From Schizochytrium sp. TIO01 (lineage: Eukaryota; Sar; Bigyra; Thraustochytrida; Thraustochytriidae): 64,000 bases of DNA. The notes under the pieces are model-generated. The model saw only the letters and a program-made list of their open reading frames with translations, made no database searches and had not been told where the DNA came from. The translations under genes and the position numbers were made by a program. Location of the stretch: assembly GCA_004764695.1 (NCBI GenBank), contig SMSO01000034.1:2302501-2366500 (forward strand), read 5' to 3'. Positions 1 to 44,060 of this stretch are shown piece by piece. Each line of letters opens with the position of its first letter. The stretch's first letter is position 1.

Positions 1-393
1 AGTAAGAGCTGCTTGCAGACCAGCAGCATCAACTTCACTTTGCTGATCATCTGCCGTAAGTAAACTCATCTCCAAGACACCATTATCCTTTCTGCCTTCA
101 ATGAGTGAGTGGATTTCCTGCGGCGAAGACTCCGCGAATTTTGACCCTGAAGTATTTGCAGCAGTGATTCCATTTCTGGCATGAGAGCTGCGTGGTGCGT
201 GGTTGGCAATATCTCTGTGAAAATCGGATTGGTTTTCATCAAGGTGCCCAGTTTTGTCTGTTCCTGCAGCACCCACACCCAAGCTGTATGAGACATTTTT
301 CGTCCCAATGGCGATATTGTTATCGCCACTAACTCCTAAGAGGTTTGAATCCTCTTTGTCAGCGGAATCCTGGACAAGCTCGTGGCTGCCCAT
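1..393 (-). CDS. Unrecognised protein, N-terminal part only (runs off left edge)
   Basis: I translated this stretch by hand from the complement. It is open for 131 codons from an ATG at 391-393 to the window edge, with no stop. The ATG context is strong (A at -3, G at +4). The product begins MGSHELVQDSADKED. It is hydrophilic, rich in Asp, Ser, Asn, Gly and Ala, and looks disordered; I see no signal peptide, membrane span or known motif. An in-frame ATG lies 32 codons upstream at 487-489, and a TGA closes the frame a few codons before that. The extra 32 residues are Arg-rich, in unusually GC-rich DNA and in a weak start context, so I prefer the inner ATG. The frame could instead be an exon. 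It is a gene on reading-frame grounds only; no function is assigned. Confidence 0.55.
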   Translation of the reverse strand, partial: MGSHELVQDSADKEDSNLLGVSGDNNIAIGTKNVSYSLGVGAAGTDKTGHLDENQSDFHRDIANHAPRSSHARNGITAANTSGSKFAESSPQEIHSLIEGRKDNGVLEMSLLTADDQQSEVDAAGLQAALT

Positions 394-18190: not shown

Positions 18191-21100
18191 TCAAAAAGAT
18201 GAGCGTGAGGTCTCTGAGTCGACAGACAAAAAACTACTTGCGCTTGAGCTAGCAGTAGTGGGTGAAGTTGACGCTTTTGATCCTGATGAAAACTTTTCCT
18301 GTAAATATGATTTTGTATTGCGGACAGAACGAGCATTATGAACTCTCTTCCAAAGTGGCTCCCGACCCCACGGCTTCCCACTCCACATATTTCGGCGAAG
18401 TAAAAGAGGATAATCATCGAGCTGCAGAAAACCAATATCCTGTGCCTCAAATTGATTTCCATGTGCCTTTAATTCAATCTGAACAGCATTGTCAAAAGGT
18501 CGATACTTATGAGCTACACCTGGAATCCATGTACCAAGATCTGCTACAAATAGTTCTACGGCCCATCGAATAATTTGTGAGCTTGGTGGACGTGACAACC
18601 GCTTTAAAAGGCTGAGTGGTTGATGTGGTCCCATCATTCGGACAAACTCGTCTAAATTAATGCGTCCATCACCATCTTTATCAATAATACTGATAAAGTC
18701 ACGAATAGCTTCCTTGTTCGGCAGTATCTCCTCTACATCTAATATCTCAAGCGCTCTTTGAAACTCATCGGCGTCAACGAGGCCTGTGCGGTCCTGATCG
18801 AAAACCCTGAAAACCTTCTCCAAATCAAATCCCCCAGGTAGAGCATCAGGATTGGAATATTCAAAAACACGAAACCTGAGCTCTGCAAGGGCACTTCGTC
18901 TGGCTTGATCCCGGAAAAACTCAGCCCCCCAGACGTCCGCTTCGTCTTCGGAGTCCACTAATTCATCTAAAAGGCACGCTCTCTCTTCCTCTGTAATTTC
19001 CTGGTCGTAATCAATATTTTCTGAATCAGAGGGATTCTCCACGCTTTCTTCGTCATTTATAGGTAAAGCTTCATCTCCACTTGCTCCAGAGATTGGAGAT
19101 GTGACATGACGAGACTCCATTACAATCATCGCATCTTCCAAGGCCTTGAAGAATAATTTGCAATCAATCAAATTGTCGTCAGACTTGTCGCCAACCCTGA
19201 ATGCTTGCCAATCCACTTCTTCAAGCATTTCGGGGACCAGGCCCGCGTCCTCAAGATAATCACAAAGAACCTTTTGAACATCTCCATATGGGACAATACA
19301 ACTATCTCCCCCGATTGAACGGAATTTAGCTCGAAGATACATTATGCCCGCAGTTCGGTTTTTATGTAAGGTCTGGCTGAGCCAAGACAGGGCATCTACC
19401 GCAGGTGGATTACATATATTTTCCCATGCATCTAAGGACAGCGGGTCTGGGAACAGATCTAAAAACATATTGAGTAATTCATCCATCTCCTCTGCATCCT
19501 GAATGCCTTCTACTGTGCGCAAGAAAACAAGGCATTCTAAACGACGCTTCAAAAGGTCTAATAATGCACCGTGAGGTATTTGAGAATCAAAGCCATGTCG
19601 AAGAAACACGCGTCTCGCATCACCCATACTTTCGACTCGCTCACGAACGTGAAGTAAAAGACCGGTTAAAATTTTGCTCGTTTCTTCAAACGGTGAAAGC
19701 ATTTTACTCACACGCTCAAAAAGGTCGTTTGTACTTATGCTTACACACAGGTATAGACGGAGGATACTCTTGCATTCTTGAATTGAAAACCAACCCAGGA
19801 CACCCTGCGCAACTGTCAAACGAAGTTGAAGACCACCTGTGCTGTGATCTGTCAATCTCCAGGCATCAACCTCCACAAGTTCTGCGGTATTCGGCGAAGT
19901 GATAAGCTTTCCTATCCACCGTACACGCTGAAATGCTGCCTTTAGAGAGTCAAGGTCTGTGCCACGTTTATCGTTCGAGGACTGCAAATACACTCGTTGA
20001 GCAAAAATCTTGCTCTGAGTAGGTGGCATCCACACTGCTCTTTCTAGAGTTTTACTACCAGACTCTCCTACCTCAACTCCACTAAAGTCAATTTTCATCA
20101 CCCTTGGATCCCGATTAGAATCCCCAGAAGTAGGGGGGAGCACGGCAAGGAGTGAGTAGAGTTCCGCCTGCTTGCAGCGCGCCCGAGCAGGAACATGTTC
20201 ATATCCTTTTCCTGCTGTAACTTTTCTCTTTTTGGAGAAGTTGAGCTTGACGGTTAATTGATATTTTGTACTGTTCCACGCTGCGCTCAGTATCGCTTTA
20301 TCAGTTTCAACCTGCTCTACTGTAACCGGAGAATCGAGAAAAGCTCGTGTAAGTCCATAAACATCAAGTTCAGCACAGGCAAGGGCTAAAGCATGCACAC
20401 GAGAAAGTATCTCATCGTTTTGATTTTGTGGTGCTTCATTTTGAAAAGACTCCAGCTCCAGCGATCGTGTGAATATTCTTTGTGATCTCTTGGCTTTAGT
20501 TTCCACCCATGCATATGACTTGGTGGCGCTTCGTTGAAGATACCGAAATGATTTGAAACGGGCATTATCGATGGCTTGAATAGAATCTTTAGTGGTTTCT
20601 TTGGGCGGATCTGACTGTAATGCACGAAAAAGAGCTAAGCCTACTTGAGATGTGTCGTGAATAGGATGAATATCTGTTATTGCACTTGCCAAATCAAATG
20701 CCATTTTACTGATGAGAGCTTCATCATTCAGAACCAACGTAGCCTGAAGAACTTCCAGCACACTTTTTTGAGCCCGTCTTTCACTGAGACAGTTAAGAGG
20801 AATTTCTTTGGTCATATCTGTAATGCCAAAACTCCGCATTAATTTCTGCAGCTCAGCAATTCGCCCAGGCACATCAATACTGGCCTTTACTTGTTGCTCC
20901 TCAGCTAGTAGACCATAGACCGGCGCTTTTCGTTGAGTCTCGTCCTGTTGCTCTTCGGCATCAAATGGGGCAAGAAAAAGCTTCAGACGTAGAATCTCCT
21001 TAGACAAGCGTGGCGCGTCCAAAGTAAGAGAGGACACCAACCCATGCCGAAAAGGCATTTGTATAGCTTCAACAATGGTAGCGTGCTCTCTTTGTACAAC

Positions 21101-24100
21101 TCTCCCCTCTGCAGAACGCAATAAAAAGCCTCGACTTGCGGCCTGAATTCGAGTTGCTGCTTTCACCTGACGGGTTTCTCTCTGCGCCATCGCATCGCTT
21201 CTCACCAGCCATCCTCGAACACGAGTTTGGATTTTCGTAGCAGCACGCTTTTGAGAGGCAATAAGCTCCACCTGTTTTTGCCGAATGTTGTGCAGGCGAA
21301 CTCGACGCTGTCTTGCTTGTTTTCCTCGAATTACTCTTTGCAAAGCAACCGCACCATTCCTCTGATCAGACATCATTTTGACATACTCCCTTTGCTTAGC
21401 AACGACTCGTCTAGCATCTTTCATAGCAGCATTCCGCCGAAAAAAATGTTGCACTTTCTTAGCACTGCGATCAATAAAGGTGCGGCTTGCTTCTAATTTT
21501 GCGAGTACTTTAACAAGAAGTGGGTCAGGATACCCATCTGCTTGATATTTCTGATAAGAAGAGCAATCATAAATCATCTCAATCGAGTCAACCCCAAGCC
21601 GTAAGGATCGACCATCCTGTAGAATGAGAAGTTCATCAACTTCATCATAACATGAAACCCGTGAGCTTTGCAGACGTTGCAGTTTACTGTTCTCTGAGGA
21701 TGCGTGGTTTACCGGTGCAGAGATTAAAACCCCCCAATTCACCTCGTGTAAAGTTTTGGAACGTTTCTTTCGAAAGAAACCCAGGTCGCCACGTCGTTTA
21801 GTAGCTTCGTGCAGATGTGCTTGCATGGTTTCAAGCTTCTGCTCAAGCAGCTCGCGTCGTGTTAGACCTCTTCTTGTTGAGGTTTCGGTCAAACGGCGTG
21901 ATTGCTCACGAAGGGCGCTCAAGACACTGTCAAGCGCAGCTTGTTTTCGGAATATATACTTTTCAATGTAAAGGACAAACTCCTCAACACTGATTCTACC
22001 ATCTTTATCAACATCGAGACTGCGAAAGAGCTGTTTCACCGAAGACGCGTCCATGACTCCAAGAGATCGCATGCCGCTCGAAAATTCAAACTGATCCAGC
22101 ATTCCACTGTCATTAGCATCTAATTTTTCAAACAATCGCCGTGAAACACTTTTGAAGTCATTCAGTAGCGCACCATGACCACTTTTCTTAATAAGTGACA
22201 ACAGGTGCTGGATTATCCGATCATTGGCGTCACCAATGAGTTCTTCGTCAGCAATACCATTGTTCGTTAAGATCTGCATCACAAGTTGATGTACAATAAT
22301 GTCTTCATTTGCTAGGTGAAAGCGCTGACATAGTCTCTCAACGAATCTGCTGCTCGCGAACTGCTCATCGGGTTCCATGAATGATTGTACGATTTCTGCA
22401 AATGCCTTCAGATTTAGTTTGGTGGGCCATTTACCCTCCTTATAATGTTCCTGCAGATGAGCTACAAACTTTTCCACCGTATTCTCAAAGCTCCGCTCCT
22501 CTGCCGCTAGTGACTTCAGCCATGCTTGCCGCACCACATCTATCGGCAGATTCTCCTGAGCAAACGATTCCAGCTTGCTTTTCACTTCCAAAATAGGGCT
22601 ATTTATGGACAGATCCTGAACTTTCGAGAGTACAGATACAAGGTTGTCAGCGGATTGTGATAGTGTAGACCTTGCACTAGCCATTGGAGAAGAATCTTGT
22701 AAATCAAAGAACTGCATAAAATGCTCACGGGTGCATGATTTGGGTTGACTAGCCATAAGAGCTTTAGAAATTGATCTCACTATATCAAGGCGATCGTCAT
22801 TTGCACTTTGTATCGAAAGTAGAGCACGCATGCTCCCTTCAAATTCATCAATGTCAATTACACCGTCTCCATCCATGTCAAAGAGATCGAAAACCTCATC
22901 TGCGCCCTGTGCTTGGTCTACTATATCGTGCAGTATGGAAAACATACTGAGTTGCTCTGCACGCGTTGCAGACATAACCGGCTTCTCATTTCGAGTGTTC
23001 TCCTCGAAATCTTCATACTCTGATGTCGAGTTGGAACTCTTCTGAGCTGCGTCAAGTTTTGCTCCTTTAGAAAGATGCTCAATAATAGCCTGCGCGCCCT
23101 GCATCTGTGTATTCTTTGTGATCACTGTTGAATTGCTTGACAACATACCCAAAGCTTTGAGCATAGGCACTGTGCTTGCATATTCTGCTGGTGTACGTCC
23201 ATAATTGTCTGCTAGGGATACATCAGCTCCAGCTTTGAGCAATGCTTTCACCAGATCTGTACGATGAATTATGACAGCTTGATGAAGGGCACTCATGCCC
23301 TTTTCATTTCGAGCAGTGAGGAATCGTGGGTTTCCCGACAGCTTGTTTGTCAGCTCTTCTGCTGGCGTTGCCTTCAATTCCTCAAGGAGCAAAAAGTCAC
23401 TAGCCTCCGAAAGCAAAAGCTCTGGATCTTGTTTGCTGTCACGACTCTTTGTCTTAAAGCATAACATGGCGGCCACGCGCTGGGATTGTTGGTGTTCCTT
23501 ACCGGGTTGAAAATCTTTTCTTCGAATCGAAAGTCTTATTTGGCCATGCGGACTTAGGTCATACCACATACACCCCGCCTCTGATACATCTTCAAGAAGC
23601 GGAATCTTTGCATAGCCTAGCAGAGGCTCTTGGTCAATTTGTGAAAGCTCCACACCTAAATATGGTGTTTCCATCTTGTTATTACAACCTGAAAAGTGCA
23701 AGTCCATTGTGTTCTGCTCTGATCGAGTCCAGCGAATGTGTTTGTTATTTCCCCAGCTAAGTGCAGTTTCGGCACAGCCTTGAGGTCGTGTCGGGCCCCA
23801 AGGAAGAACTTCACAACGCACTTTGAGTCTGCGTAGACTTTGATCAGTGCCTTCTGAAAAATTCCGGGCCTCGACAACACGAACTTCAATCATGCAAGGG
23901 GTGTACAAGCTGTCTGCGGGTATTTGGTCCTTTGGAACGTTTTCTGAAGATCCTGTATCAGAGTTTCTTTCTTCCAAATTTATGTCTGAGAGTTTTAGCA
24001 TACCACAACGTTGTTCATTGTCGGAGGTGTCTTGTGTCCAAATCTTGACAAGCAAAGCAACATCGTTGTCCTGAGAACGCATCCAATGTGTAAATTTTGT

Positions 24101-27100
24101 GCGTTCTAGGACCGGGCCAAGTTCTACCTGAAATGCAAAACACGCCCCACCTTCACTAAGCAGCTCAAATTTTACAGAATCTTCTACTCCAAAATATTTT
24201 TCACGAAACGCAAAGCCTTCATTCCAATCAATAACGCCCTGCTGGTTGGCAGAAACAGACGATGTTTCTCGCTTGTTTCCTTGACCACGGGCGTTTGCAT
24301 AAACTCTGACAGAAAACTTTTGGCTGCGAGACCCCACCTTCGCACGAACAACATGGATATGTAGACCTTTGCCTTGACGAGAACGTAAACCTCCTGTCAG
24401 AGATATTTCCTTGCTCTCAGCAAAGCCTGAACTAAGAAGTTGTTCAATCTCTACAACCTGGGTTTGGCCAACAAGCTCAGAATCTTCCCATACCTTGAAA
24501 ACGCATTGGCCAGTTCTAGACTTGAGCACAGGAAACCGCATGGATCCATAAGCAGGCGATTCCCCCATATGCTTTGCGATCATGGAACGTGCTAGCTCAC
24601 GATTGTCTTCGAGATCCTGAATCGTACAATATGTACTCAAAGAAGCTTGTTTACTGCCCATTGCACCAACCACACCAGATGCAGACACCTTCATACTCAA
24701 GTATCCTAAGATCTGTTTTGACCGTCTCGTTAGATAGCCTCGAGCTAACGCAGTCATTTTCACCGCCGCTCTATGTTGGGAAACATCATCGAAAAGATGA
24801 TCATTCGGCTTAAACCTAACTTCAACTCGAACTGTGGGGTGGATAGCTTGAGGTTCGATACTCTGTATATCAAGTTCAGTAATTTCCTGCTCCAAAACAG
24901 GATTTCTCAAATTTCTGTCATGAAAAAGCTGAGCTAGAAACTTGATACCAGCGTCTCGTTGGTCTTCGAGAATTCCGGGAAATAGTATGGCAGCTTCATT
25001 GCAATCTGATGCAAGATCCCAGATATGTACGCAATCCGCTTGTTCGTCTATAAATTTAGGCAGTGGATACTGACCTACTACTTCACATCGTAAATAGAAG
25101 GAGCAGCTGTTTGAACCTATTACAGGTCGCACGTGTAACGTCCCTTGAAGTGCCCTGGGGAGTGGAAGTCTTAATGCGTGATATTGTCCACTTAATTGAA
25201 TACCTGGTCGTCGTATTAGGTCTTGGGTGTGCTGAATTATTCGAAGAAAAGTTGTACTTTTCAGATCATGTGGAAGCAGATCCAAATGCAGAACTCCTTT
25301 GGACGGATCATTAACGCTATCTTGCGGTGGAATGGGAATACGGAATTCCGCTAGAGATGCTGCATCAGGAACGACAGGAAGTTCTTCACCATCAAGTGAG
25401 GCCCTGATATCATGACCACCATACTTTAGTCCAAGCTGAAGGACTCCTCCAGCTCGCATTAACTCTTGGCGTGACAAATATTCGGAATGCACAATTTTAG
25501 CCGCAACCTGTCTGGCTAGCTCAGAAAGGCTATCTGCTGTTTCTCTTGGGACTTCTTCAATAAATGTTTTGGCAATATGGGAACTTAGTAGTAAGGATAA
25601 GATCTCATCTTCATGATCTTGAGGGTCCTCTTTCGATGCATCTTCCAGCGCATCACGATCGTAGAGAGCTTTGACACGCACATCAAGAGCCTCCTGCAAA
25701 TAGACTTTACGCTCATCCCTTGCAAGACGCTGGTTGATTGCCTCAAGTACACTATTTGAGTCTAACCCTTCAACGCCATACTGCACAAACCGGAGAGCTA
25801 AATCTTGAACTGTTAGTTTATTTTGAATAACAGTTGAGTACAAACCAAGAGCTGTAAGCTCCACCTCCGTGACAGGATTACCTAGCTCAACAATATCCAT
25901 ATTTATACTCTTTAAAGCACGGAGGAGCTCTACTGCATGAAACGGACGGTGATTTTGAATAAATGTCTCTATGACATGATGTCTGGACTTTCGATCTTGC
26001 AAGTCACGGGATCGTAAAAGCTCGTCATGCTGCTCGATTATTAGCATCTGCTCTCTTAGCTGCTCTGGTGGATCTGCCCTTTCTCCAACTAGATTCTCAG
26101 CATAAAGAATGTCAGCTCGACTTTGCACTCGAAGATGGTCTCGTCTCGTTCCAAGAGATTTGCCAAGATCACTTTGCTTTGTTTCAATCCAAGCTTTTAG
26201 ACTTAGTGCTTCTTGGTCAACCACAGCACGTTGTTGCAACATTTTCTCAATTGCTCTCGATGTTTCAATGATATCTTCCATCGATGGCAAACCCTCCTGC
26301 CGGAAAAGCTTAGCCTCGACAATTTTGGCAGCTCTAGGATCCTTCATGTTCAAATGAGGAAGATAAAGGCGAAGCTGATCTAAGATAAAAATCTTGCGTT
26401 CCTGCTCAAAAAACACAAGTTCGCGTATAATAGTTTGTGCATCCTTTTGATTCGAGTTTGTTTGGTACAATTTACTTAGTTTGTCATGTATACGACTTTG
26501 ACGCAACATCACATGTATATTGCAGGCCGCCTGGAGGAGGAAGTCATACTGCATCGGGTCGAGCACGGTTTTTCCAGACGCATATGCTGCAGAGTATGCC
26601 TTTGAAAAATTATACATTTGTTCTTGAACTTCAATCTCAAACTCCCAGAGCCTCTCTGGAGGCATACCAGGCGCGAGGCTAATTAGTTTTGCTAATTCAG
26701 TAATGTTTTGAAGGTTCCCTTCCACGTGTTTATGTCCAGTACGTTGTTGCTCTACTCCAACATGCAAAATTTTTGGCATGGCTTGGAGAACTTTATTTGA
26801 CTCTTCGTTGAGACGAGTAGCCTGGTTGATCATTTCAGTGCGTTTCCGAATAGCAAGATCCATGCTGTCGAGAGTGACTTCGGTGGTTATTTCGGAAGAT
26901 AATTCTAATACAGCAGTATCATATTTCACTATAGAAGTACGAAGAGTAAGTGTACCGGTTGCTCCTTTCCCTTGGAGTAACACAATTTCTTCAGCTAGCT
27001 CCTTCGAACAGTTGATAGAAAGATAGCCGAGCCGGTCATCCATAAGGGAAAATGAGTCTTTATCGCGAACCTCAATCTTTATAGGAATATTGTCTTCAGT

Positions 27101-30100
27101 TAGCTCGCCAGGCTTGAAGTTAAACTCAAGAACCTCATTCCAGTCAGGATTACATGTATCCTGGCACACACGGGTTCGTTGTTTTGCGTGAGGGCCAACA
27201 CGAACGATGCAGTACGGGTCGCTGGATGTTGCAGTGCGCGAAAATATGCCCGTTGTATCGGCAGCCCGTAGATTTCGAGCATGCAAGACCTCCACACGGA
27301 TCCTTAGAGGCGAACCCTTCAGGTCGATTCTGTTAGGGATTCGGTCAACCTGAAAGGACTTTGATACCCCAATTTTCCGGCCCGAGTGGTGTTCAATTAG
27401 AGCGAATGTTATTTTTTCTTGAAATGGCAACTCTAGAATCGGAGGGTCCGGCCAGGTCAAGTGCGGACCTTTTGCGTCTGGGGAGGCTTCTTTCGCGCCT
27501 GAGCGTGATTCTGTGACTACCACACGTGCGTTTACCTCTTGTGAATATGTCACAGATTTCAGTTCTAGCCTTAATAACGCATTTTTGGAATATTCCTTAG
27601 CTAGGCTCGGGTTTGAAGAGGTTACAGCGCGCTTCAGTTTAGCCCAGGCGAGATATTCATTTAAAGAGACTTGTCCATCACAGTTAAGGTCCAGATTTGC
27701 AAGTTCAAAAGTCATGTCATAGATACTGCTTGCACTCAATAGAAAGGCAAGTTCCTCATGAACAAGTTGATCTATATGCTGCGCAGATATAAATCCCTTG
27801 CACTCCTTATCGAAACGCCGAAATGCATCAATAAACGGCTGCAGCTCTGGGTCGTTTTCCAGAGCTTTCGCTATCTCTGCGGCGCCTGAGTCATCCAAAG
27901 CCACCGCATACTTTGAATCTGGCTTAATAGTACTTTGCAGTGATTCTTCGAAAGAAAAATCTATTTCTACAGAGTTCTTTAGTTTTGTTGTGAAGAGTTG
28001 GGGGGACTGAATGTCATTAAGTGGTAATGTTTGATAATGTCGAAGGTGAATCTGGTCTTGAGAAAACACGAGGATAGAAACCGATAGGGCTGCTGCGGCA
28101 GAAGATTTAAGGTTAAAATGTTCTCCGAAAAACGCAGCACCGTTTTGGACTTGAACAGTTGACGAAATGCCAATTGCATCGTGCTTTGCCCCCAAAGCCG
28201 AAACTAAATACATGGTCACACGACACTTCACTTGTTCATCTTTAGATACCTGGTTTTTTAGTGCAAGGCCTTTAATTTGGTTCAAACGAAGAAACAGTCC
28301 TTTCGTATCCTTTGTCTCTTCATGGTTTGCCTCGAAAATGGACCAGTAAAGAACTTTGGGCAAACTAACAGAGTATGCGTGAGGCTTATCCTCGACTAAC
28401 TGAAGCTGTTCGTTTCTGACCTCGTATACACCCTCTACAACTTTATCATCTTTTGAGTACGCTAAAAGCTGCAGCGAGTGTAGTGATCTTTGAAGGTGTT
28501 TTTCTCCGTACCCAACGCATGCAAGGCTGACAAAATCGTCACCATCCTGTATAAGAGGCTGCAAAGCTCGACATTCAACCCGAAAGTCGCCGGAGAGGGT
28601 CATGTTTGTGAAAGCATAGCTTCTCAAACTCGATGGAAGCTTAAGAAGAGTCTTATACAGACTTTGCTGTTTCGGCGGCGGGTGCTTCATTCTTTCAGAT
28701 TCTTTGCGGGAGTTGTAGCATTTTACTTCGAAGTAAAGTTTGGCGTGAGCTCCTGGAAAGTTAATCTCAAGATTTTCTTGCTCCAGAACAAGAACAGGCA
28801 AAACTTGGGTCTCTATGGCGATTTCATTGTTGTCCAAATCGCATTCCACGAGTGTAACCTCCAGCGGAAACGATGAAGAGGACCCGTCAATGCGAAAGGG
28901 GCCTAAGGACTCCTCAAAGATAAACAAGGCAGGCTGTTGCGAAATATCACCAGATCTGCTAGAGTCTCTCATTTCAAGAAGATATTCGAGCTCGTCACCT
29001 CGCCCTTCTGTCGTGTTCAAGGTGTTTTGCTGCCAGATTTCCTCTCGAAAATGAGTCATAAACCATGTGTTTATAACCTTGACACGTACTGAGACGCGAT
29101 GGCTTGATTGTAACCCGTTAAGGCGACTTAGGCGAATATTAAGAAATCGATCACCTTGACTATCTGTTGATGCCAAAGACGAGCGGCGCCGCACCCTCAC
29201 TGATGAAGATGACAAGCTCTCCCGGCCCGAACTCTTTGACTCTTCAACACTGTCAGCAAGTGGAGGAAAAGAGTCTAATGGTACATTCTTGTTATCCTGC
29301 CGGCTAGAGGCCAGCTCTAAAAAGCCTGCAAGGCGATTTCTGTACAAAAGTGGGCGGAAAGCAAACTCTACAGGAAGATCCCATTGAGGTAGTTCGAGAA
29401 AAGTTACAGAACCTAATATGTTAGTGTCAGCAAAAACTCGAGCAGTAAGAAGCCATACAGGGCCTGTTGCTGTTGCCTCGATGTGATTTGAAAGTCTTCC
29501 TGCAGCAAGGTCCTCAAGTTGAAAGTTCAACGTCTCTTGTTCCCACTCTGGATTTGCCAAAGACCCTTGTGGGATACTAAGCGATGTTTTAGCATTTGTT
29601 TTACGATGAGTTTCCTCAATTGTGACCTTGATGTTTCCTTTTGCACGACGCAGCTCTCTTGCATTTAGGATGTCAATTATAGCTACATCAGGTACCTTTG
29701 AATCCGCGTATGGAGAACGAACCTTTCCCCACCTTGAGTTAGCCCACGGTCTAAGGCATGCTGAATCTAAAGAATCAATAGTGAGATCAAGAATGAACTT
29801 TCCTACATTACAATGGAAAGGAACGGTCAACCACTCACGTGATTGGCAGCAGACAAGAGAGCCAATGTCTATTATTGTCTCTCCAAGCAGAACGTTTCTG
29901 ATAGACATGACATTAACTTTTAGAAGAATATGCTGATTGTCCACCTGGACATCACACTGAGCAGTTTCAGCCATTTCTTCCTCGATACCAACTGTTTGAG
30001 AGCGGAATCTTTGAACTACTATAAGATCTTCGCCAATTTGATTTCCGGGTCTTAATATTTCGAGCTGCAGAAAGACCTCTGCTGGTCGTAAAGTAGTAGC

Positions 30101-31591
30101 CTCGATAGCTTTCATTAAAATACGATTCATCGTGATCAATAATCTCCTCTTTGGTGCTGTCATAATACTTTGTGCTTCACTAGTGGCCATTATGCTGAAC
30201 GTGTCATCGGGCATACTCTCAGAATTAACTTTGGATATAACATGCGGATGTCCAGGCTCAATATCATCAGTTGAATTTGTATGTAGTAGCGACTCAAACT
30301 CCCAGGTAAGCTGAATTTGGCCATTTCGAGTTGATGTTGATTGCCATCTTCCATTGTCATGTGCTGCAATTACGCAGCTGCCAAGTTCAGAGTTTCCGTC
30401 AGAAAATAATTCAACATGTAAAGTTTCGAATTCATACATAGTGGTCATGAGTATCGAGCCTTCGAGCACCTCCAAAGTTAGGTCACGGTCATCATGGCCA
30501 CGTCGAAAACGGGAAGGTTTAGCAGATGCCCACACTTCTCCATTGAAAAGCCCAAAGCTGATTGTTTCCCTAGACGTGCCGAGAGAAATGCGCATCCCAA
30601 ATGAAACATCTTCAAAACTAGAACCCAAGGCTTCTCTCAAACTGAAACCCCGCAACTTAATCTTTTTGAGACGTAGAAACCCAGGTGTCTGTGTTCGTGA
30701 AGGTTCAATATGCAATTTTTGTGTTTCTTCCTTGCTCTCGAAAGATACATGTGCCTTGACATGGATTCCCCATTTAGACTGGTTTGAGAGGATGTGGTTT
30801 GCACGAAACTTTAAAGATGTCAGGAAATTCTCGTTCCCTTGCAAAGATAGAATATGTGATGCGGTGACTTCCTCCAGATTAAGATCAAGATCCAGGCTCG
30901 AGCCTTTGAAACTCTGCTGCACGAGGGGTTTGACATGAGCTGATAACTGTAGATATTTCTCGTTCCCTGTGCCAGGAAAAGTAAAGGTTTGTTTGATTGT
31001 AAATTCTTTGCCTTGTTCGGTGGGTCGAATTGGTTTTTCCGGGTCGCATTGGTGGGCTCCTAGGGCTCCAGAAAACTGTAGATCATACTGATTCAAATTT
31101 CCGTGAGAGACGCGACCTGAAAGAAGCACTACACGCCATAGACCTTCAGGATAAGCACTACGTGGGAATTCTGTAGGTTCAAGAAATACTTGAAGGGTGA
31201 TTTGACAATTTGTGGAGCCTTCCACATCGAGAAGGTCAACATGTGCTTGCTTCATCTTTGAGGCACGGCTAAAACTTTCTAGTTTTGGCTTCCCCCCAAG
31301 ACGCAACCATTTCAGAGGATGATATGGAAGAATTGATGCTGAAGAGCTCAACAAGCTTTTGTTTGCTCCTTTTGCTAGAAATAGATCCTCCAAATCCAAA
31401 CTCCCTTGGAGGTCAGAGTCGTTTCCCACCTGTCTAATATGAAGCCAAGAATCTCTAAGATCCTCTTCAATGATGACTTCGGAGTTCTGACGCCCGAGGA
31501 TTCTTTCCTGTGGCATGAGCATAATCTCTACATTTTCCTCATCTGTTTCGATGTGCAGTCTATAAGCTTTGCTTCTGTCTTCCACTGCCAT
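18191..31591 (-). CDS. Giant (4466 aa) C2 / EF-hand / IQ / ankyrin protein
   Basis: One uninterrupted frame from an ATG at 31589-31591 (context AAA-ATG-G). Domains, in approximate residues: beta-rich, C2-like segments over 100-1250; EF-hand pair at 1261 (degenerate) and 1301 (DLNCDGQVSLNE); a canonical C2 domain at 1428-1555 with the calcium-site motifs DPYC, NPDWNE and VRDKDSFSLMDD; a long helical region about 1580-2050; an IQ-like motif at 2276; more C2-like segments about 2300-2740; two ankyrin repeats at 2760-2815 (MSALHQAV, GRTPAEYA); EF-hands at 2905 (DMDGDGVIDIDE), 3158 and 3193 (DVDKDGRISVEE); an IQ cluster at 3380-3492; and a final EF pair at 4265 and 4304 (DKDGDGRINLDE). The C-terminus is Ser/Thr-rich. 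No signal peptide or membrane span was seen, so it is not a ferlin. Calcium, calmodulin and phospholipid binding are inferred. A scaffold role, perhaps cytoskeletal or flagellar, is only a guess. I know no family with this exact order. Confidence 0.9.
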   Translation of the reverse strand: MAVEDRSKAYRLHIETDEENVEIMLMPQERILGRQNSEVIIEEDLRDSWLHIRQVGNDSDLQGSLDLEDLFLAKGANKSLLSSSASILPYHPLKWLRLGGKPKLESFSRASKMKQAHVDLLDVEGSTNCQITLQVFLEPTEFPRSAYPEGLWRVVLLSGRVSHGNLNQYDLQFSGALGAHQCDPEKPIRPTEQGKEFTIKQTFTFPGTGNEKYLQLSAHVKPLVQQSFKGSSLDLDLNLEEVTASHILSLQGNENFLTSLKFRANHILSNQSKWGIHVKAHVSFESKEETQKLHIEPSRTQTPGFLRLKKIKLRGFSLREALGSSFEDVSFGMRISLGTSRETISFGLFNGEVWASAKPSRFRRGHDDRDLTLEVLEGSILMTTMYEFETLHVELFSDGNSELGSCVIAAHDNGRWQSTSTRNGQIQLTWEFESLLHTNSTDDIEPGHPHVISKVNSESMPDDTFSIMATSEAQSIMTAPKRRLLITMNRILMKAIEATTLRPAEVFLQLEILRPGNQIGEDLIVVQRFRSQTVGIEEEMAETAQCDVQVDNQHILLKVNVMSIRNVLLGETIIDIGSLVCCQSREWLTVPFHCNVGKFILDLTIDSLDSACLRPWANSRWGKVRSPYADSKVPDVAIIDILNARELRRAKGNIKVTIEETHRKTNAKTSLSIPQGSLANPEWEQETLNFQLEDLAAGRLSNHIEATATGPVWLLTARVFADTNILGSVTFLELPQWDLPVEFAFRPLLYRNRLAGFLELASSRQDNKNVPLDSFPPLADSVEESKSSGRESLSSSSVRVRRRSSLASTDSQGDRFLNIRLSRLNGLQSSHRVSVRVKVINTWFMTHFREEIWQQNTLNTTEGRGDELEYLLEMRDSSRSGDISQQPALFIFEESLGPFRIDGSSSSFPLEVTLVECDLDNNEIAIETQVLPVLVLEQENLEINFPGAHAKLYFEVKCYNSRKESERMKHPPPKQQSLYKTLLKLPSSLRSYAFTNMTLSGDFRVECRALQPLIQDGDDFVSLACVGYGEKHLQRSLHSLQLLAYSKDDKVVEGVYEVRNEQLQLVEDKPHAYSVSLPKVLYWSIFEANHEETKDTKGLFLRLNQIKGLALKNQVSKDEQVKCRVTMYLVSALGAKHDAIGISSTVQVQNGAAFFGEHFNLKSSAAAALSVSILVFSQDQIHLRHYQTLPLNDIQSPQLFTTKLKNSVEIDFSFEESLQSTIKPDSKYAVALDDSGAAEIAKALENDPELQPFIDAFRRFDKECKGFISAQHIDQLVHEELAFLLSASSIYDMTFELANLDLNCDGQVSLNEYLAWAKLKRAVTSSNPSLAKEYSKNALLRLELKSVTYSQEVNARVVVTESRSGAKEASPDAKGPHLTWPDPPILELPFQEKITFALIEHHSGRKIGVSKSFQVDRIPNRIDLKGSPLRIRVEVLHARNLRAADTTGIFSRTATSSDPYCIVRVGPHAKQRTRVCQDTCNPDWNEVLEFNFKPGELTEDNIPIKIEVRDKDSFSLMDDRLGYLSINCSKELAEEIVLLQGKGATGTLTLRTSIVKYDTAVLELSSEITTEVTLDSMDLAIRKRTEMINQATRLNEESNKVLQAMPKILHVGVEQQRTGHKHVEGNLQNITELAKLISLAPGMPPERLWEFEIEVQEQMYNFSKAYSAAYASGKTVLDPMQYDFLLQAACNIHVMLRQSRIHDKLSKLYQTNSNQKDAQTIIRELVFFEQERKIFILDQLRLYLPHLNMKDPRAAKIVEAKLFRQEGLPSMEDIIETSRAIEKMLQQRAVVDQEALSLKAWIETKQSDLGKSLGTRRDHLRVQSRADILYAENLVGERADPPEQLREQMLIIEQHDELLRSRDLQDRKSRHHVIETFIQNHRPFHAVELLRALKSINMDIVELGNPVTEVELTALGLYSTVIQNKLTVQDLALRFVQYGVEGLDSNSVLEAINQRLARDERKVYLQEALDVRVKALYDRDALEDASKEDPQDHEDEILSLLLSSHIAKTFIEEVPRETADSLSELARQVAAKIVHSEYLSRQELMRAGGVLQLGLKYGGHDIRASLDGEELPVVPDAASLAEFRIPIPPQDSVNDPSKGVLHLDLLPHDLKSTTFLRIIQHTQDLIRRPGIQLSGQYHALRLPLPRALQGTLHVRPVIGSNSCSFYLRCEVVGQYPLPKFIDEQADCVHIWDLASDCNEAAILFPGILEDQRDAGIKFLAQLFHDRNLRNPVLEQEITELDIQSIEPQAIHPTVRVEVRFKPNDHLFDDVSQHRAAVKMTALARGYLTRRSKQILGYLSMKVSASGVVGAMGSKQASLSTYCTIQDLEDNRELARSMIAKHMGESPAYGSMRFPVLKSRTGQCVFKVWEDSELVGQTQVVEIEQLLSSGFAESKEISLTGGLRSRQGKGLHIHVVRAKVGSRSQKFSVRVYANARGQGNKRETSSVSANQQGVIDWNEGFAFREKYFGVEDSVKFELLSEGGACFAFQVELGPVLERTKFTHWMRSQDNDVALLVKIWTQDTSDNEQRCGMLKLSDINLEERNSDTGSSENVPKDQIPADSLYTPCMIEVRVVEARNFSEGTDQSLRRLKVRCEVLPWGPTRPQGCAETALSWGNNKHIRWTRSEQNTMDLHFSGCNNKMETPYLGVELSQIDQEPLLGYAKIPLLEDVSEAGCMWYDLSPHGQIRLSIRRKDFQPGKEHQQSQRVAAMLCFKTKSRDSKQDPELLLSEASDFLLLEELKATPAEELTNKLSGNPRFLTARNEKGMSALHQAVIIHRTDLVKALLKAGADVSLADNYGRTPAEYASTVPMLKALGMLSSNSTVITKNTQMQGAQAIIEHLSKGAKLDAAQKSSNSTSEYEDFEENTRNEKPVMSATRAEQLSMFSILHDIVDQAQGADEVFDLFDMDGDGVIDIDEFEGSMRALLSIQSANDDRLDIVRSISKALMASQPKSCTREHFMQFFDLQDSSPMASARSTLSQSADNLVSVLSKVQDLSINSPILEVKSKLESFAQENLPIDVVRQAWLKSLAAEERSFENTVEKFVAHLQEHYKEGKWPTKLNLKAFAEIVQSFMEPDEQFASSRFVERLCQRFHLANEDIIVHQLVMQILTNNGIADEELIGDANDRIIQHLLSLIKKSGHGALLNDFKSVSRRLFEKLDANDSGMLDQFEFSSGMRSLGVMDASSVKQLFRSLDVDKDGRISVEEFVLYIEKYIFRKQAALDSVLSALREQSRRLTETSTRRGLTRRELLEQKLETMQAHLHEATKRRGDLGFFRKKRSKTLHEVNWGVLISAPVNHASSENSKLQRLQSSRVSCYDEVDELLILQDGRSLRLGVDSIEMIYDCSSYQKYQADGYPDPLLVKVLAKLEASRTFIDRSAKKVQHFFRRNAAMKDARRVVAKQREYVKMMSDQRNGAVALQRVIRGKQARQRRVRLHNIRQKQVELIASQKRAATKIQTRVRGWLVRSDAMAQRETRQVKAATRIQAASRGFLLRSAEGRVVQREHATIVEAIQMPFRHGLVSSLTLDAPRLSKEILRLKLFLAPFDAEEQQDETQRKAPVYGLLAEEQQVKASIDVPGRIAELQKLMRSFGITDMTKEIPLNCLSERRAQKSVLEVLQATLVLNDEALISKMAFDLASAITDIHPIHDTSQVGLALFRALQSDPPKETTKDSIQAIDNARFKSFRYLQRSATKSYAWVETKAKRSQRIFTRSLELESFQNEAPQNQNDEILSRVHALALACAELDVYGLTRAFLDSPVTVEQVETDKAILSAAWNSTKYQLTVKLNFSKKRKVTAGKGYEHVPARARCKQAELYSLLAVLPPTSGDSNRDPRVMKIDFSGVEVGESGSKTLERAVWMPPTQSKIFAQRVYLQSSNDKRGTDLDSLKAAFQRVRWIGKLITSPNTAELVEVDAWRLTDHSTGGLQLRLTVAQGVLGWFSIQECKSILRLYLCVSISTNDLFERVSKMLSPFEETSKILTGLLLHVRERVESMGDARRVFLRHGFDSQIPHGALLDLLKRRLECLVFLRTVEGIQDAEEMDELLNMFLDLFPDPLSLDAWENICNPPAVDALSWLSQTLHKNRTAGIMYLRAKFRSIGGDSCIVPYGDVQKVLCDYLEDAGLVPEMLEEVDWQAFRVGDKSDDNLIDCKLFFKALEDAMIVMESRHVTSPISGASGDEALPINDEESVENPSDSENIDYDQEITEEERACLLDELVDSEDEADVWGAEFFRDQARRSALAELRFRVFEYSNPDALPGGFDLEKVFRVFDQDRTGLVDADEFQRALEILDVEEILPNKEAIRDFISIIDKDGDGRINLDEFVRMMGPHQPLSLLKRLSRPPSSQIIRWAVELFVADLGTWIPGVAHKYRPFDNAVQIELKAHGNQFEAQDIGFLQLDDYPLLLRRNMWSGKPWGREPLWKRVHNARSVRNTKSYLQEKFSSGSKASTSPTTASSSASSFLSVDSETSRSSF

Positions 31592-41216: not shown

Positions 41217-43541
41217 TTACGTACAGGGAGGCTGCGAAATAAGCATCCTCGAAAAGATTTTACGAAGGTTTGTGAGTCCAAAGACCATCCCCTCATCGTA
41301 GTCGTCGCCGTGTTTGTGACGTTCGACTTTTGCAAAATCGATGAGACGGACGTTGACGCAAAAATTGCGGTCGTCACGGTTGAAGCCCTTACGACGCTTC
41401 TCGTTGGCCTCAGCATCCGGTGAAGACGGGCTAACTGGAATGAGATCAAACGAACGTGAGCGAGGGTGAATGTAAATATTTTCCGATGTAGAGGTTCCTG
41501 ACGAGAGTACCGGAGAGTTGCTTGGTGTTGTCAGAGAGTCCGATGAAGATGAGGAAAGTCTATCACGACGAGCCTGGGGGTCGCTGCTATCATACACGAT
41601 AAGAACTGAGCAGCCATAGAAACGCCAAGGCGTGGTTTTCACAGCTTGCTCGAGCATGGACAGCTGTACGATGATATCATTGACTACATTGACCCGTACG
41701 TTGCCGGAGCGTTTGTCTACCACAAAGGCAAGTAAAGCGTCGTCGAGGCCATCTTGATCAAGGGAGCGACCCCAGTACTTATCCTTGAGAACAAAAGCGC
41801 GCTTGATATCGTCGTATGTCTGCATACCCCCGATGCGAACACCAACTGATTTGGATGTGGTTGATTCTACACGCTTTTGCTTCTTTGCCTTCTTCTCGGC
41901 ACTCTCCTTAGAGTTGTGTTGTTGAATGCCCATTTTCAGATCCAGAATGTGCGGATGGATCAATCCGTGCGTAAGATCCTCCAGTACCAGGTACACGAGT
42001 TTGCCTGGCTCCACCTCGACCACCTTCTTCTTACGGTAGCCCGCAAAACGAGACCAAAGTGAGGTAATACTCCAAGAGCGCTGAAGGCGCGCCGGAGGGG
42101 GAAGCGACTCACCAGGCTGTTGGTGATGTTGTTGTTGTTGTTGTTGCTGCTGCTGAGCGAGAACATGTTTGTGTTGAAGTGGCTGCTCCTCCAGTTGTGA
42201 CTTTGATGTAAGGTTAGAAGTGTTGGGCAGGTTGTCCTGGTCCTCGAGTTCGGCCATCTCGGTGTGATTGCTATCCTCTTCACTGGCAAGGTTAGACGCA
42301 GCAAGAGGGTCGTCGCCGAGCATGCTTTGAGACATTTGGTGGGGTTCTGGTTGAGGCTGTTGTTGCGCCTGATGCCTCAGTTGCTGGTGACCGTAAAAGT
42401 CCGAATCAACAGCGTCTTTGTTGCCATTCTCAGACAGGTGAAGGTCAAGGCTACGCTCGCTCACAGACAGTTCTTCCGCATCCTCGTCGTCCTCGATGTC
42501 GTCGTCCTCATGGTCCTCATCGCTGTGGATCCGATGGGTAGATAGGTTTGTGGGGTTTGAATCAATGCGTTTCCGTTTGACTTCTCCGCTATCGGCAGAA
42601 GTGGCATCGTCGCTTGTTGATCGCTTAGACTCGTCTACCGTTGTGAGTTCACTGTTTCCGTGCATGCACTGAAGGGGTCTTGTGAGTGCGTGGTCGTTTT
42701 CAAGGATGTTTTGCACATCAATAATGACACGGCCAGAGAACTTTGGTGTGAATCGCGCCACTTGGGGCGCCTCTTTCTGTAAACATTCATAGGTATCAAT
42801 TTCCGCCTGAGTGGCAGGCTTGCACAGTTCCCCAAGATCTCCACGAAGCATGGGGAAACTGCCTGCTACCTGGTGTGGGAATAGATACAATTGGCCTCCG
42901 GAGGGGCTCATGGCCACAACCTCGGGCAGGTGGCTTACGCCGCCCCAGACCTCCTCTTCAAATGTGCCATCGCGATACAAAAGAACAGAAAGTGAGCCGT
43001 ATGGTTTCTTCAAGCCGGTGAGTTGCGAGGGTGGAAGTGAATGTGCGTTGCGAAAGAGGTCATCGATGATGCCTCCGTGGGTGACGACGACGACCTGTTG
43101 GCCTTTGTGGAGGTGTACAACGTCGTTCATGAATTGTTTGACACGGCGAAACCTATCATTGAGCGATTCGCCCTCTGGGACCCTGAAGTCCGGGTTACGC
43201 TCCACAAATCGTTTTCTATACACTTCGGGCATGCGTTCCTTGACTTGGTTCATAGACAAGCCAACAAGCGCACCAGAGTTGTACGGGAGAAGTCGTTTGT
43301 CAAGTTCCACTTTAAGGTTCAATTCCTTGCAGATGTTTTGCGCTGTTTCGTACGATCTTGGGCTACTGTAGACTGCCGATACTTTGCGTCCTTTCAATGT
43401 GTTCGCAATCGCCACCGCCTGCAGCGAGCCCTTTCCCGAGAGGTGTGCCAGCGCCGGTGTCACATGTTCAGCATGTCTCACAATATACAACCGCGTCCAC
43501 CCTGGTCGAAGCCCCTCTGTCGGTGTCGTCATCATCCGCAT
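41217..43541 (-). CDS. Histidine phosphatase - inositol polyphosphate kinase fusion
   Basis: 774 residues from the ATG at 43539-43541; the frame runs 49 codons further upstream but only from TTG. Residues 1-205 are a PGAM-type histidine phosphatase: LYIVRHAEH (catalytic His23, Arg22), SSPRSYETAQN (59-69), VPEGESLNDRF (121-131) and VVTHGGIIDDL (second His155). From about 218 comes an inositol polyphosphate kinase of the IPMK/IP6K family: LFPHQVAG (220-227), a core Lys in CKPATQAEIDTYE, PKFSGRVIID (266-275), LEDLTHGLIHPHILDLKMG (520-538, the PxxxDxKxG site), VGVRIGGMQTYD (567-578), VLIVYD (646-651), RLIDFAK (732-738) and a DEGMVFGLTNL end. The kinase halves are split by a 220-residue acidic, Gln-rich insert (about 283-505). 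One half should phosphorylate an inositol phosphate and the other may remove a phosphate; substrates are inferred. The order and kinase fold differ from PPIP5K. Confidence 0.88.
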   Translation of the reverse strand: MRMMTTPTEGLRPGWTRLYIVRHAEHVTPALAHLSGKGSLQAVAIANTLKGRKVSAVYSSPRSYETAQNICKELNLKVELDKRLLPYNSGALVGLSMNQVKERMPEVYRKRFVERNPDFRVPEGESLNDRFRRVKQFMNDVVHLHKGQQVVVVTHGGIIDDLFRNAHSLPPSQLTGLKKPYGSLSVLLYRDGTFEEEVWGGVSHLPEVVAMSPSGGQLYLFPHQVAGSFPMLRGDLGELCKPATQAEIDTYECLQKEAPQVARFTPKFSGRVIIDVQNILENDHALTRPLQCMHGNSELTTVDESKRSTSDDATSADSGEVKRKRIDSNPTNLSTHRIHSDEDHEDDDIEDDEDAEELSVSERSLDLHLSENGNKDAVDSDFYGHQQLRHQAQQQPQPEPHQMSQSMLGDDPLAASNLASEEDSNHTEMAELEDQDNLPNTSNLTSKSQLEEQPLQHKHVLAQQQQQQQQQHHQQPGESLPPPARLQRSWSITSLWSRFAGYRKKKVVEVEPGKLVYLVLEDLTHGLIHPHILDLKMGIQQHNSKESAEKKAKKQKRVESTTSKSVGVRIGGMQTYDDIKRAFVLKDKYWGRSLDQDGLDDALLAFVVDKRSGNVRVNVVNDIIVQLSMLEQAVKTTPWRFYGCSVLIVYDSSDPQARRDRLSSSSSDSLTTPSNSPVLSSGTSTSENIYIHPRSRSFDLIPVSPSSPDAEANEKRRKGFNRDDRNFCVNVRLIDFAKVERHKHGDDYDEGMVFGLTNLRKIFSRMLISQPPCT

Positions 43542-44060
43542 TGGACGCTGCTGCCTCTGCCTCCACCACTGCACGCTCCCCGCGTCCAGCTGCTCCAGTT
43601 TCACGGACCCCTTGGTCTCCTCCTCGGCAATCGTTCTTCTTCTCGACCAAGAAACAGAGAGAAAAAGAGACTCTCTAATAACAAACAATATTATTATTCT
43701 CCTCTTCTTCTTCGCGCCGTCGGTTTTCGTTCACAAAACCCGTCACTTCGAATCCAGCCTCGCGGCCAGGGTCGCCGCCGCTCGTGCCGCGGAAGAAGAA
43801 GCTGTCTCCGCGCGACCTCCTCCTCCTCCTCCTCCACGCGCCGCCGCTCCTCGCGGTGCCGCTGCTCGCCTTGGACGGGGCTCTGACGCCGGGCCTGAGC
43901 AATAATTAATTAGCGATTTGGTCTCCCGGCTTCTCGCTCTTCTGCTTTTCTATTCTATTCTGTGTACGTATGAATATGTTTCTTTCTCTCTCTCTCTGTG
44001 TATATATATATGTGTATATATATATATTCCTCTTATGGCGTCGATGTAATGATGATGAGC

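Follow-up and report, generated by a model that had tools for sequence, protein, structure and literature searches.

The locus analysed here raises the question of whether a histidine phosphatase and an inositol phosphate kinase are joined in one gene and, if so, what the joined protein might do. The window, a stretch of 64,000 nucleotides from Schizochytrium sp. TIO01, carries on its minus strand a reading frame in which phosphatase motifs had been predicted to lead directly into the motifs of an IPK-family kinase. We addressed this question by analyzing the frame and its junction, the two halves of the encoded protein, their relatives in this and other genomes, and the resemblance of the whole to known enzymes.

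A single reading frame spanning two domains

The fusion gene and its junction comprise the following features.

41217..43541, minus strand: fusion ORF, 774 aa, counted from the first ATG at 43541
42876..42917, minus strand: 14-residue linker, delimited on one side by the PhoE (1h2e) alignment and the ends of bacterial homologues and on the other by HQVAG
42909..42911, minus strand: in-frame ATG (Met211) within the linker, in the context GCCATGA

The same minus-strand frame encodes 823 aa when counted from a TTG (41217..43688), and it is open upstream as far as 43730. Residues are numbered here from the Met, which equals the ORF number minus 49, unless they are marked ORF. This numbering and the end at 43541 agree with the His23 and the coordinates of the original prediction. 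All five motifs named in the original prediction were located in the fusion frame, starting at residues 22 (RHAE), 154 (THGG), 223 (HQVAG), 530 (PHILDLKMG) and 732 (RLIDF), so the predicted passage from phosphatase to kinase within one frame was borne out. Against Pfam-A at E <= 0.1, the fusion ORF matched only two families, PF00300 and PF03770.

The alignment with PhoE of Bacillus (Geobacillus) stearothermophilus (1h2e) ended at ORF 257, which corresponds to residue 204 of the 207 of PhoE, and HQVAG started at ORF 272. In seven Geobacillus-type rows, the protein ended at most about ten residues from a (V/A)(S/A)H motif that is also present in the fusion. End-to-start joining of two complete genes would be the simplest reading, and it is possible that Met211 in the linker represents an ancestral or alternative start of the kinase. 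The two ATGs were weighed by the start-codon context rule; the first ATG of the fusion gene, at 43541, has C at -3.

Coding potential was scored by codon bias, with six further ORFs from the same genome as the training set, in windows of 60 codons with all six frames compared. Over the junction (ORF 187-246, 207-266, 227-286, 247-306 and 267-326), the ORF frame was positive and the best of six, and it remained the best of six in every window from ORF 187-246 through 767-826; beyond the stop of the fusion ORF, the score dropped below zero. Further upstream, the reverse frame lay slightly above the ORF frame in windows 147-206 (0.130 vs 0.128) and 167-226 (0.126 vs 0.081), and in window 67-126 the ORF frame was the best yet negative. 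Windows that begin ahead of ORF 67 show no preference for the ORF frame, which makes the N-terminal start the least certain part of the predicted fusion protein. Judged by codon bias, the junction is coding, and the gene is a genuine single-frame fusion in the DNA. At the other end, the stop codon sits inside CCTGTACGTAA (41217-41227). This sequence looks similar to a 5' splice donor (GTACGT), so the gene might conceivably continue into another exon on its 3' side.

The two halves and their relatives

The phosphatase half contains the following features.

42918..43490, minus strand: histidine phosphatase domain, branch 1, ORF 67-257 (Met 18-208), from PF00300, the PhoE alignment and the model
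43467..43478, minus strand: RHAE, with R22 and the predicted phospho-acceptor H23; R and H in 31/31 rows
43341..43367, minus strand: SSPRSYETA, with the putative second active-site Arg, R62; the preceding loop is 2 residues shorter than in relatives
43284..43286, minus strand: Pro86 at the general-acid position, which is Glu in 27/31 and Asp in 4/31 of the aligned rows
43071..43082, minus strand: THGG, with the putative second active-site His, H155; His in 31/31 rows

The Pfam-A profile His_Phos_1 (PF00300) matched ORF 67-248 with 112 bits against a cut-off of 21.7 (E 3.8e-32). An AlphaFold2 model of the domain, built from nine aligned sequences, reached a mean pLDDT of 76 and a pTM of 0.76, and its best PDB matches were the phosphoserine phosphatase PspA (4ij6) and PhoE (1h2e), at E 1.4e-13; residues 26-35, in the shortened region after RHAE, were modelled with low confidence. 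The best-matching family models were those of phosphoserine phosphatase PspA, acid phosphatase and alpha-ribazole phosphatase, all well under their curated cut-offs.

The active site was compared with 31 bacterial rows (loci L047-L077) picked as matching the window phosphatase or PhoE, of which 29 are distinct (L055 = L047 and L056 = L054) and seven are close Geobacillus, Parageobacillus or Anoxybacillus sequences. The general-acid role of the Glu/Asp column and the roles of R22, H23, R62 and H155 are those that we assume from the superfamily. These four residues, invariant in all of the bacterial rows, are kept in the fusion, and R62 is predicted to be the pocket Arg despite the shorter loop before it. 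The loop following RHAE is about 8 residues shorter than in the bacterial rows, and the region of the QG motif is among the missing residues. As judged from the alignment, the phosphate-holding and nucleophilic residues are retained and the proton donor is lost. The phosphatase motifs had been described as intact; this held for the R-H pair, the second Arg and the second His, but the acid is replaced by Pro86 and two loops are shortened.

We then considered where this domain might come from. Within its own genome, where seven candidates were scored, the window phosphatase matched only PFKFB-type domains at E <= 0.01 (26.2 and 21.5 bits); by blastp against 19 of the 26 PF00300 matches of the genome, the window's own match and six more being omitted, a PFKFB domain ranked first with 42.0 bits and two others followed with 38.9 each. 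Bacterial histidine phosphatases reached up to 73.7 bits, and 108 of 296 bacterial genomes, evenly drawn from a single phylum, matched at E <= 1e-8. E-values in these searches are per genome and not comparable between them, but the bits are, and descent of the fusion phosphatase from PFKFB was not supported, since bacterial domains outscored PFKFB domains by 73.7 to 26.2 bits. Searches of viral contigs with the whole ORF, the phosphatase part, the kinase part and one phosphatase paralogue from the same genome confirmed no relatives. A close-relative search of genome contigs with the phosphatase part likewise confirmed none, although the more sensitive whole-genome searches do find the bacterial phosphatases. 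No description of an IPK-histidine phosphatase fusion was found in the open-licence PMC literature, as judged mostly from titles and the beginnings of abstracts, and the words 'fusion' and 'fused' do not occur in the available text of a eukaryote-wide survey (PMC8024741). The layout may already exist, unremarked, in eukaryotic protein databases.

The kinase half contains the following features.

42669..42875, minus strand: proposed kinase N-lobe (HQVAG ... CKP ... FTPKFSG), boundary approximate
41997..42668, minus strand: low-complexity insertion, acidic and with poly-Q, that separates the N-lobe from the kinase core, with approximate boundaries; over its whole length the ORF frame scores best as coding
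41253..41993, minus strand: IPK kinase core, ORF 566-812, from PF03770, with a Ser-rich insertion ahead of RLIDF
41928..41954, minus strand: PHILDLKMG, matching the PxxxDxKxG catalytic motif
41334..41348, minus strand: RLIDF, matching the IDF motif

The Pfam-A profile of the IPK family (PF03770) matched the fusion with 157.7 bits against a cut-off of 22.2 (E 4.3e-46) over profile positions 1-189 of 190, and the PxxxDxKxG and IDF motifs are intact. Under the motif definitions that we used (PxxxDxKxG, SLL and IDF, as given in the available part of PMC12694804), the SLL motif reads S-V-L (CSVLIVYD), one conservative change. The proposed N-lobe gave no match in the PDB at E <= 1. In pairwise comparisons, 7 of 1000 shuffles scored as well as the N-lobe against the IPMK-like domain of the gene on contig C3, described below, and 205 of 1000 did so against the IPMK fragment of 6m88, which is not significant; QVAG is also present in 6m88. 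The assignment of the N-lobe, made mainly from motif order, is weakly supported by sequence. A full-length single-sequence model of the fusion was uninformative (pTM 0.23).

Among solved structures searched with phmmer, the fusion kinase scored highest with the IP6K 4o4d, presumably from Entamoeba (44.6 bits), and the best IPMK was 6e7f (38.5 bits). The kinase is likely of the IP6K subtype, by a narrow margin of about 6 bits over IPMK. The rest of the genome (64 Mb, 37 contigs) bears on this assignment. A genome-wide IPK search gave three domain matches, which belong to the fusion and to only one other gene, on C3 (L001:619-2940:+; C3:2173861-2175270), where two IPK domains stand in tandem behind a hydrophobic stretch. 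The first of these domains (residues 223-469) matched IPMK 6m88 with 142 bits (E 2.2e-40) vs 82.7 for IP6K. IP3 3-kinase A (1w2c) matched the protein as a whole at E 3.4e-18 in two stretches, the better of them at residues 630-745; in the available text of PMC8024741, IP3-3K is given a late origin, in metazoans. On the assumption of a division of labour, the fusion kinase is the better IP6K candidate, because the other IPK gene is plainly IPMK-like in its first domain.

The genome also carries a PPIP5K gene on C24, with PF18086 and PF00328 in one 1210-aa frame and the stretch RHGDRTPKQ, and pathway matches to one IPPK and nine SPX. The ITPK profile found no match, but it was also silent in the control genomes, so absence is not established. 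Six matches to PF03162, which we take to be the PFA-DSP type, were found; they may reflect an expansion of inositol pyrophosphate phosphatases of this type. The 26 PF00300 matches include some that are pieces of one gene, and three 6PF2K (PF01591) matches each share a frame with a PF00300 match, as in PFKFB. In one of these PFKFB-type genes (L010, C24:2967242-2967742), the general-acid column of the phosphatase domain is likewise occupied by Pro (LNPLNKGELGG), unlike in L008 and L012, which have Glu. Thus, the fusion is an addition and not a replacement, given the co-occurring PPIP5K, the three PFKFB-type genes, the IPMK-like kinase and the six PF03162 matches. Hondaea fermentalgiana is a labyrinthulomycete. 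Its counts of 2 IPK, 1 IPPK, 0 ITPK and 1 PPIP5K, as given in the part of PMC8024741 available to us, equal those found in this genome, in keeping with the labyrinthulomycete origin presumed in the original prediction. Elsewhere in the window, a 4466-codon open frame (18191-31591, minus strand) contains stretches that look C2-like, ankyrin-like, EF-hand-like and IQ-like by eye only.

Proposed function and rival explanations

We propose, with slightly less than even confidence, that the gene encodes a protein in which a complete branch-1 histidine phosphatase is joined to an IP6K-type kinase, and that the kinase makes 5-InsP7 and the phosphatase removes the beta-phosphate of an inositol pyrophosphate. 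The kinase half would convert InsP6 to 5-InsP7. In the phosphatase half, His23 would attack the beta-phosphate gripped by Arg22, Arg62 and His155, and a protein acid would be unnecessary, since a phosphoanhydride bond offers a good leaving group; this would fit the replacement of the acid by Pro. The relative strength of the two halves would determine the local level of 5-InsP7, upstream of the separate PPIP5K. We infer, in this proposal, that the gene is expressed as one protein, that its kinase has IP6K specificity, that its phosphatase acts on pyrophosphates and that the two are coupled. The substrate of the phosphatase cannot be read from its sequence, and its closest relatives among solved phosphatases take their names from other substrates.

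The missing acid has precedents in other folds and branches. AtPFA-DSP1, an inositol pyrophosphate hydrolase of the tyrosine-phosphatase fold, lacks the general-acid motif, as does Siw14, and its authors proposed that the proton comes from the substrate itself (PMC9038691, available text). In the branch-2 enzyme ScVip1, the change E991A at the proton-donor position raised pyrophosphate activity, and InsP6 was still not hydrolysed; MINPP enzymes have Ala at this position, yet they act broadly on InsP6 (both from the accessible portion of PMC11836120). By analogy, the acid loss fits a phosphatase of pyrophosphate bonds and alone need not mean a dead enzyme, because AtPFA-DSP1 and ScVip1 E991A act on pyrophosphates without an acid; nor does it prove pyrophosphate specificity, because the acid-less MINPPs use InsP6. 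This analogy reaches across folds and branches, and decay of the domain is possible; the lost acid and the two short loops may equally signal a decayed phosphatase.

The main rival to a pyrophosphate-directed phosphatase is accordingly a phosphatase half that is dead or nearly so and serves the kinase as a phosphate- or inositol-phosphate-binding regulatory domain, a built-in sensor. Pro86 where 31/31 rows have Glu or Asp, the loss of about 8 residues after RHAE and 2 before R62, and the low model confidence in that same region (residues 26-35) would all suit such a domain. We nevertheless consider it somewhat unlikely, since R22, H23, R62 and H155 are all retained, which a decaying domain need not do, and published enzymes of other folds or branches hydrolyse pyrophosphates without the acid. 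Less probable still is a phosphatase active on some other substrate, such as protein phosphohistidine, inositol phosphate esters or small phosphate esters, with the fusion serving localisation or co-regulation. The best family matches, PspA, acid phosphatase and alpha-ribazole phosphatase, would accord with this explanation, although all fall well below curated cut-offs, as would SixA, a member of the same superfamily that acts on phosphohistidine (PMC7948535, PMC6282199, available parts), and the use of InsP6 by acid-less MINPPs (available text of PMC11836120); the attached kinase belongs to the inositol pathway, however, which makes a common substrate likelier.

The remaining explanations concern the join itself, and we give them little weight. 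The halves might yield two products, either the full fusion plus a kinase-only form from Met211 or separately transcribed parts: the linker ATG at 42911 stands in the context GCCATGA and a C occupies position -3 of the first ATG (43541), but frame and coding bias are unbroken and a linker of 14 residues leaves little space for a terminator and a promoter, which makes this explanation improbable. An assembly or annotation artefact joining two genes is very improbable indeed. The sequence comes from one assembly, and no sign in favour of an artefact was found; the frame is one continuous stretch within a 4.85-Mb contig, and an erroneous in-frame join that kept both complete domains and the coding bias would be most unlikely.

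Returning to the proposal of a kinase and a pyrophosphate-directed phosphatase on one chain, the six PF03162 matches and PPIP5K could supply the dephosphorylation, which counts against the proposed role of the phosphatase half. More tentatively, the fusion may be a second, independently assembled kinase/phosphatase for inositol pyrophosphates, in a cell that also has a canonical PPIP5K. Its IP6K would turn InsP6 into 5-InsP7, and an acid-free branch-1 histidine phosphatase on the same chain, specialised to the pyrophosphate bond, would reverse the step. That a kinase/phosphatase switch for these pyrophosphates evolved independently, as the original prediction suggested, is a good hypothesis. 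Should the fusion function in this way, one principle of control would have arisen twice, from unrelated parts; its acid-less histidine phosphatase would be a direct test of the idea of acid-free inositol pyrophosphate hydrolysis, and branch-1 histidine phosphatases would join the enzymes that remove inositol pyrophosphates. To our knowledge, no branch-1 histidine phosphatase has been assigned such an activity.

Comparison with known enzymes

PPIP5K ties an InsP8-making kinase to a phosphatase that breaks down inositol pyrophosphates. Like PPIP5K/Vip1, the fusion combines in a single chain a kinase and a histidine phosphatase proposed to act in inositol pyrophosphate metabolism; however, in PPIP5K/Vip1 an ATP-grasp kinase is followed by a branch-2 acid phosphatase (PF00328), whereas in the fusion a branch-1 domain (PF00300) precedes a kinase of the IPK fold. 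Neither PF18086 nor PF00328 was found in the fusion protein at E <= 0.1. The claim that the fusion differs from PPIP5K by an IPK-fold kinase and reversed order agrees with the Pfam domains; the genome also has a separate PPIP5K gene. This contrast with PPIP5K, which the original prediction named as the known enzyme joining a kinase with a histidine phosphatase, stands, but PFKFB was left out, although the genome has it. PFKFB is a known small-molecule kinase joined to a branch-1 histidine phosphatase; its 6PF2K kinase (PF01591) is N-terminal, its phosphatase is C-terminal and its substrate is another, whereas the fusion has the opposite order and an IPK kinase, with PF01591 absent at E <= 0.1.

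Each half also has its own nearest relatives. The kinase resembles IP6Ks in its PxxxDLKxG and IDF motifs, in 4o4d as the nearest solved kinase, and in a large variable insertion in the N-terminal half, which is also a trait of animal IP6Ks. We know of no IP6K with a phosphatase domain, and the 5-InsP7-making kinase is known to us only as a lone kinase. The phosphatase shares its fold, the RH pair, the second Arg, the second His and the C-terminal boundary with branch-1 enzymes of the PhoE, PspA and CobC type, but these have an acid Glu and full loops and stand alone, whereas the fusion has Pro, shortened loops and an attached kinase. In a different protist, the Plasmodium HDAC2-IPMK fusion PF3D7_1008000 joins an IPK kinase to another enzyme (PMC12694804, available text); its partner is a deacetylase, whereas the partner here is a phosphatase. 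Taken by its predicted domains, the fusion is set apart from PPIP5K by the fold of its kinase, the branch of its phosphatase and the order of the two; what sets it apart from PFKFB is the kinase and, again, the order.
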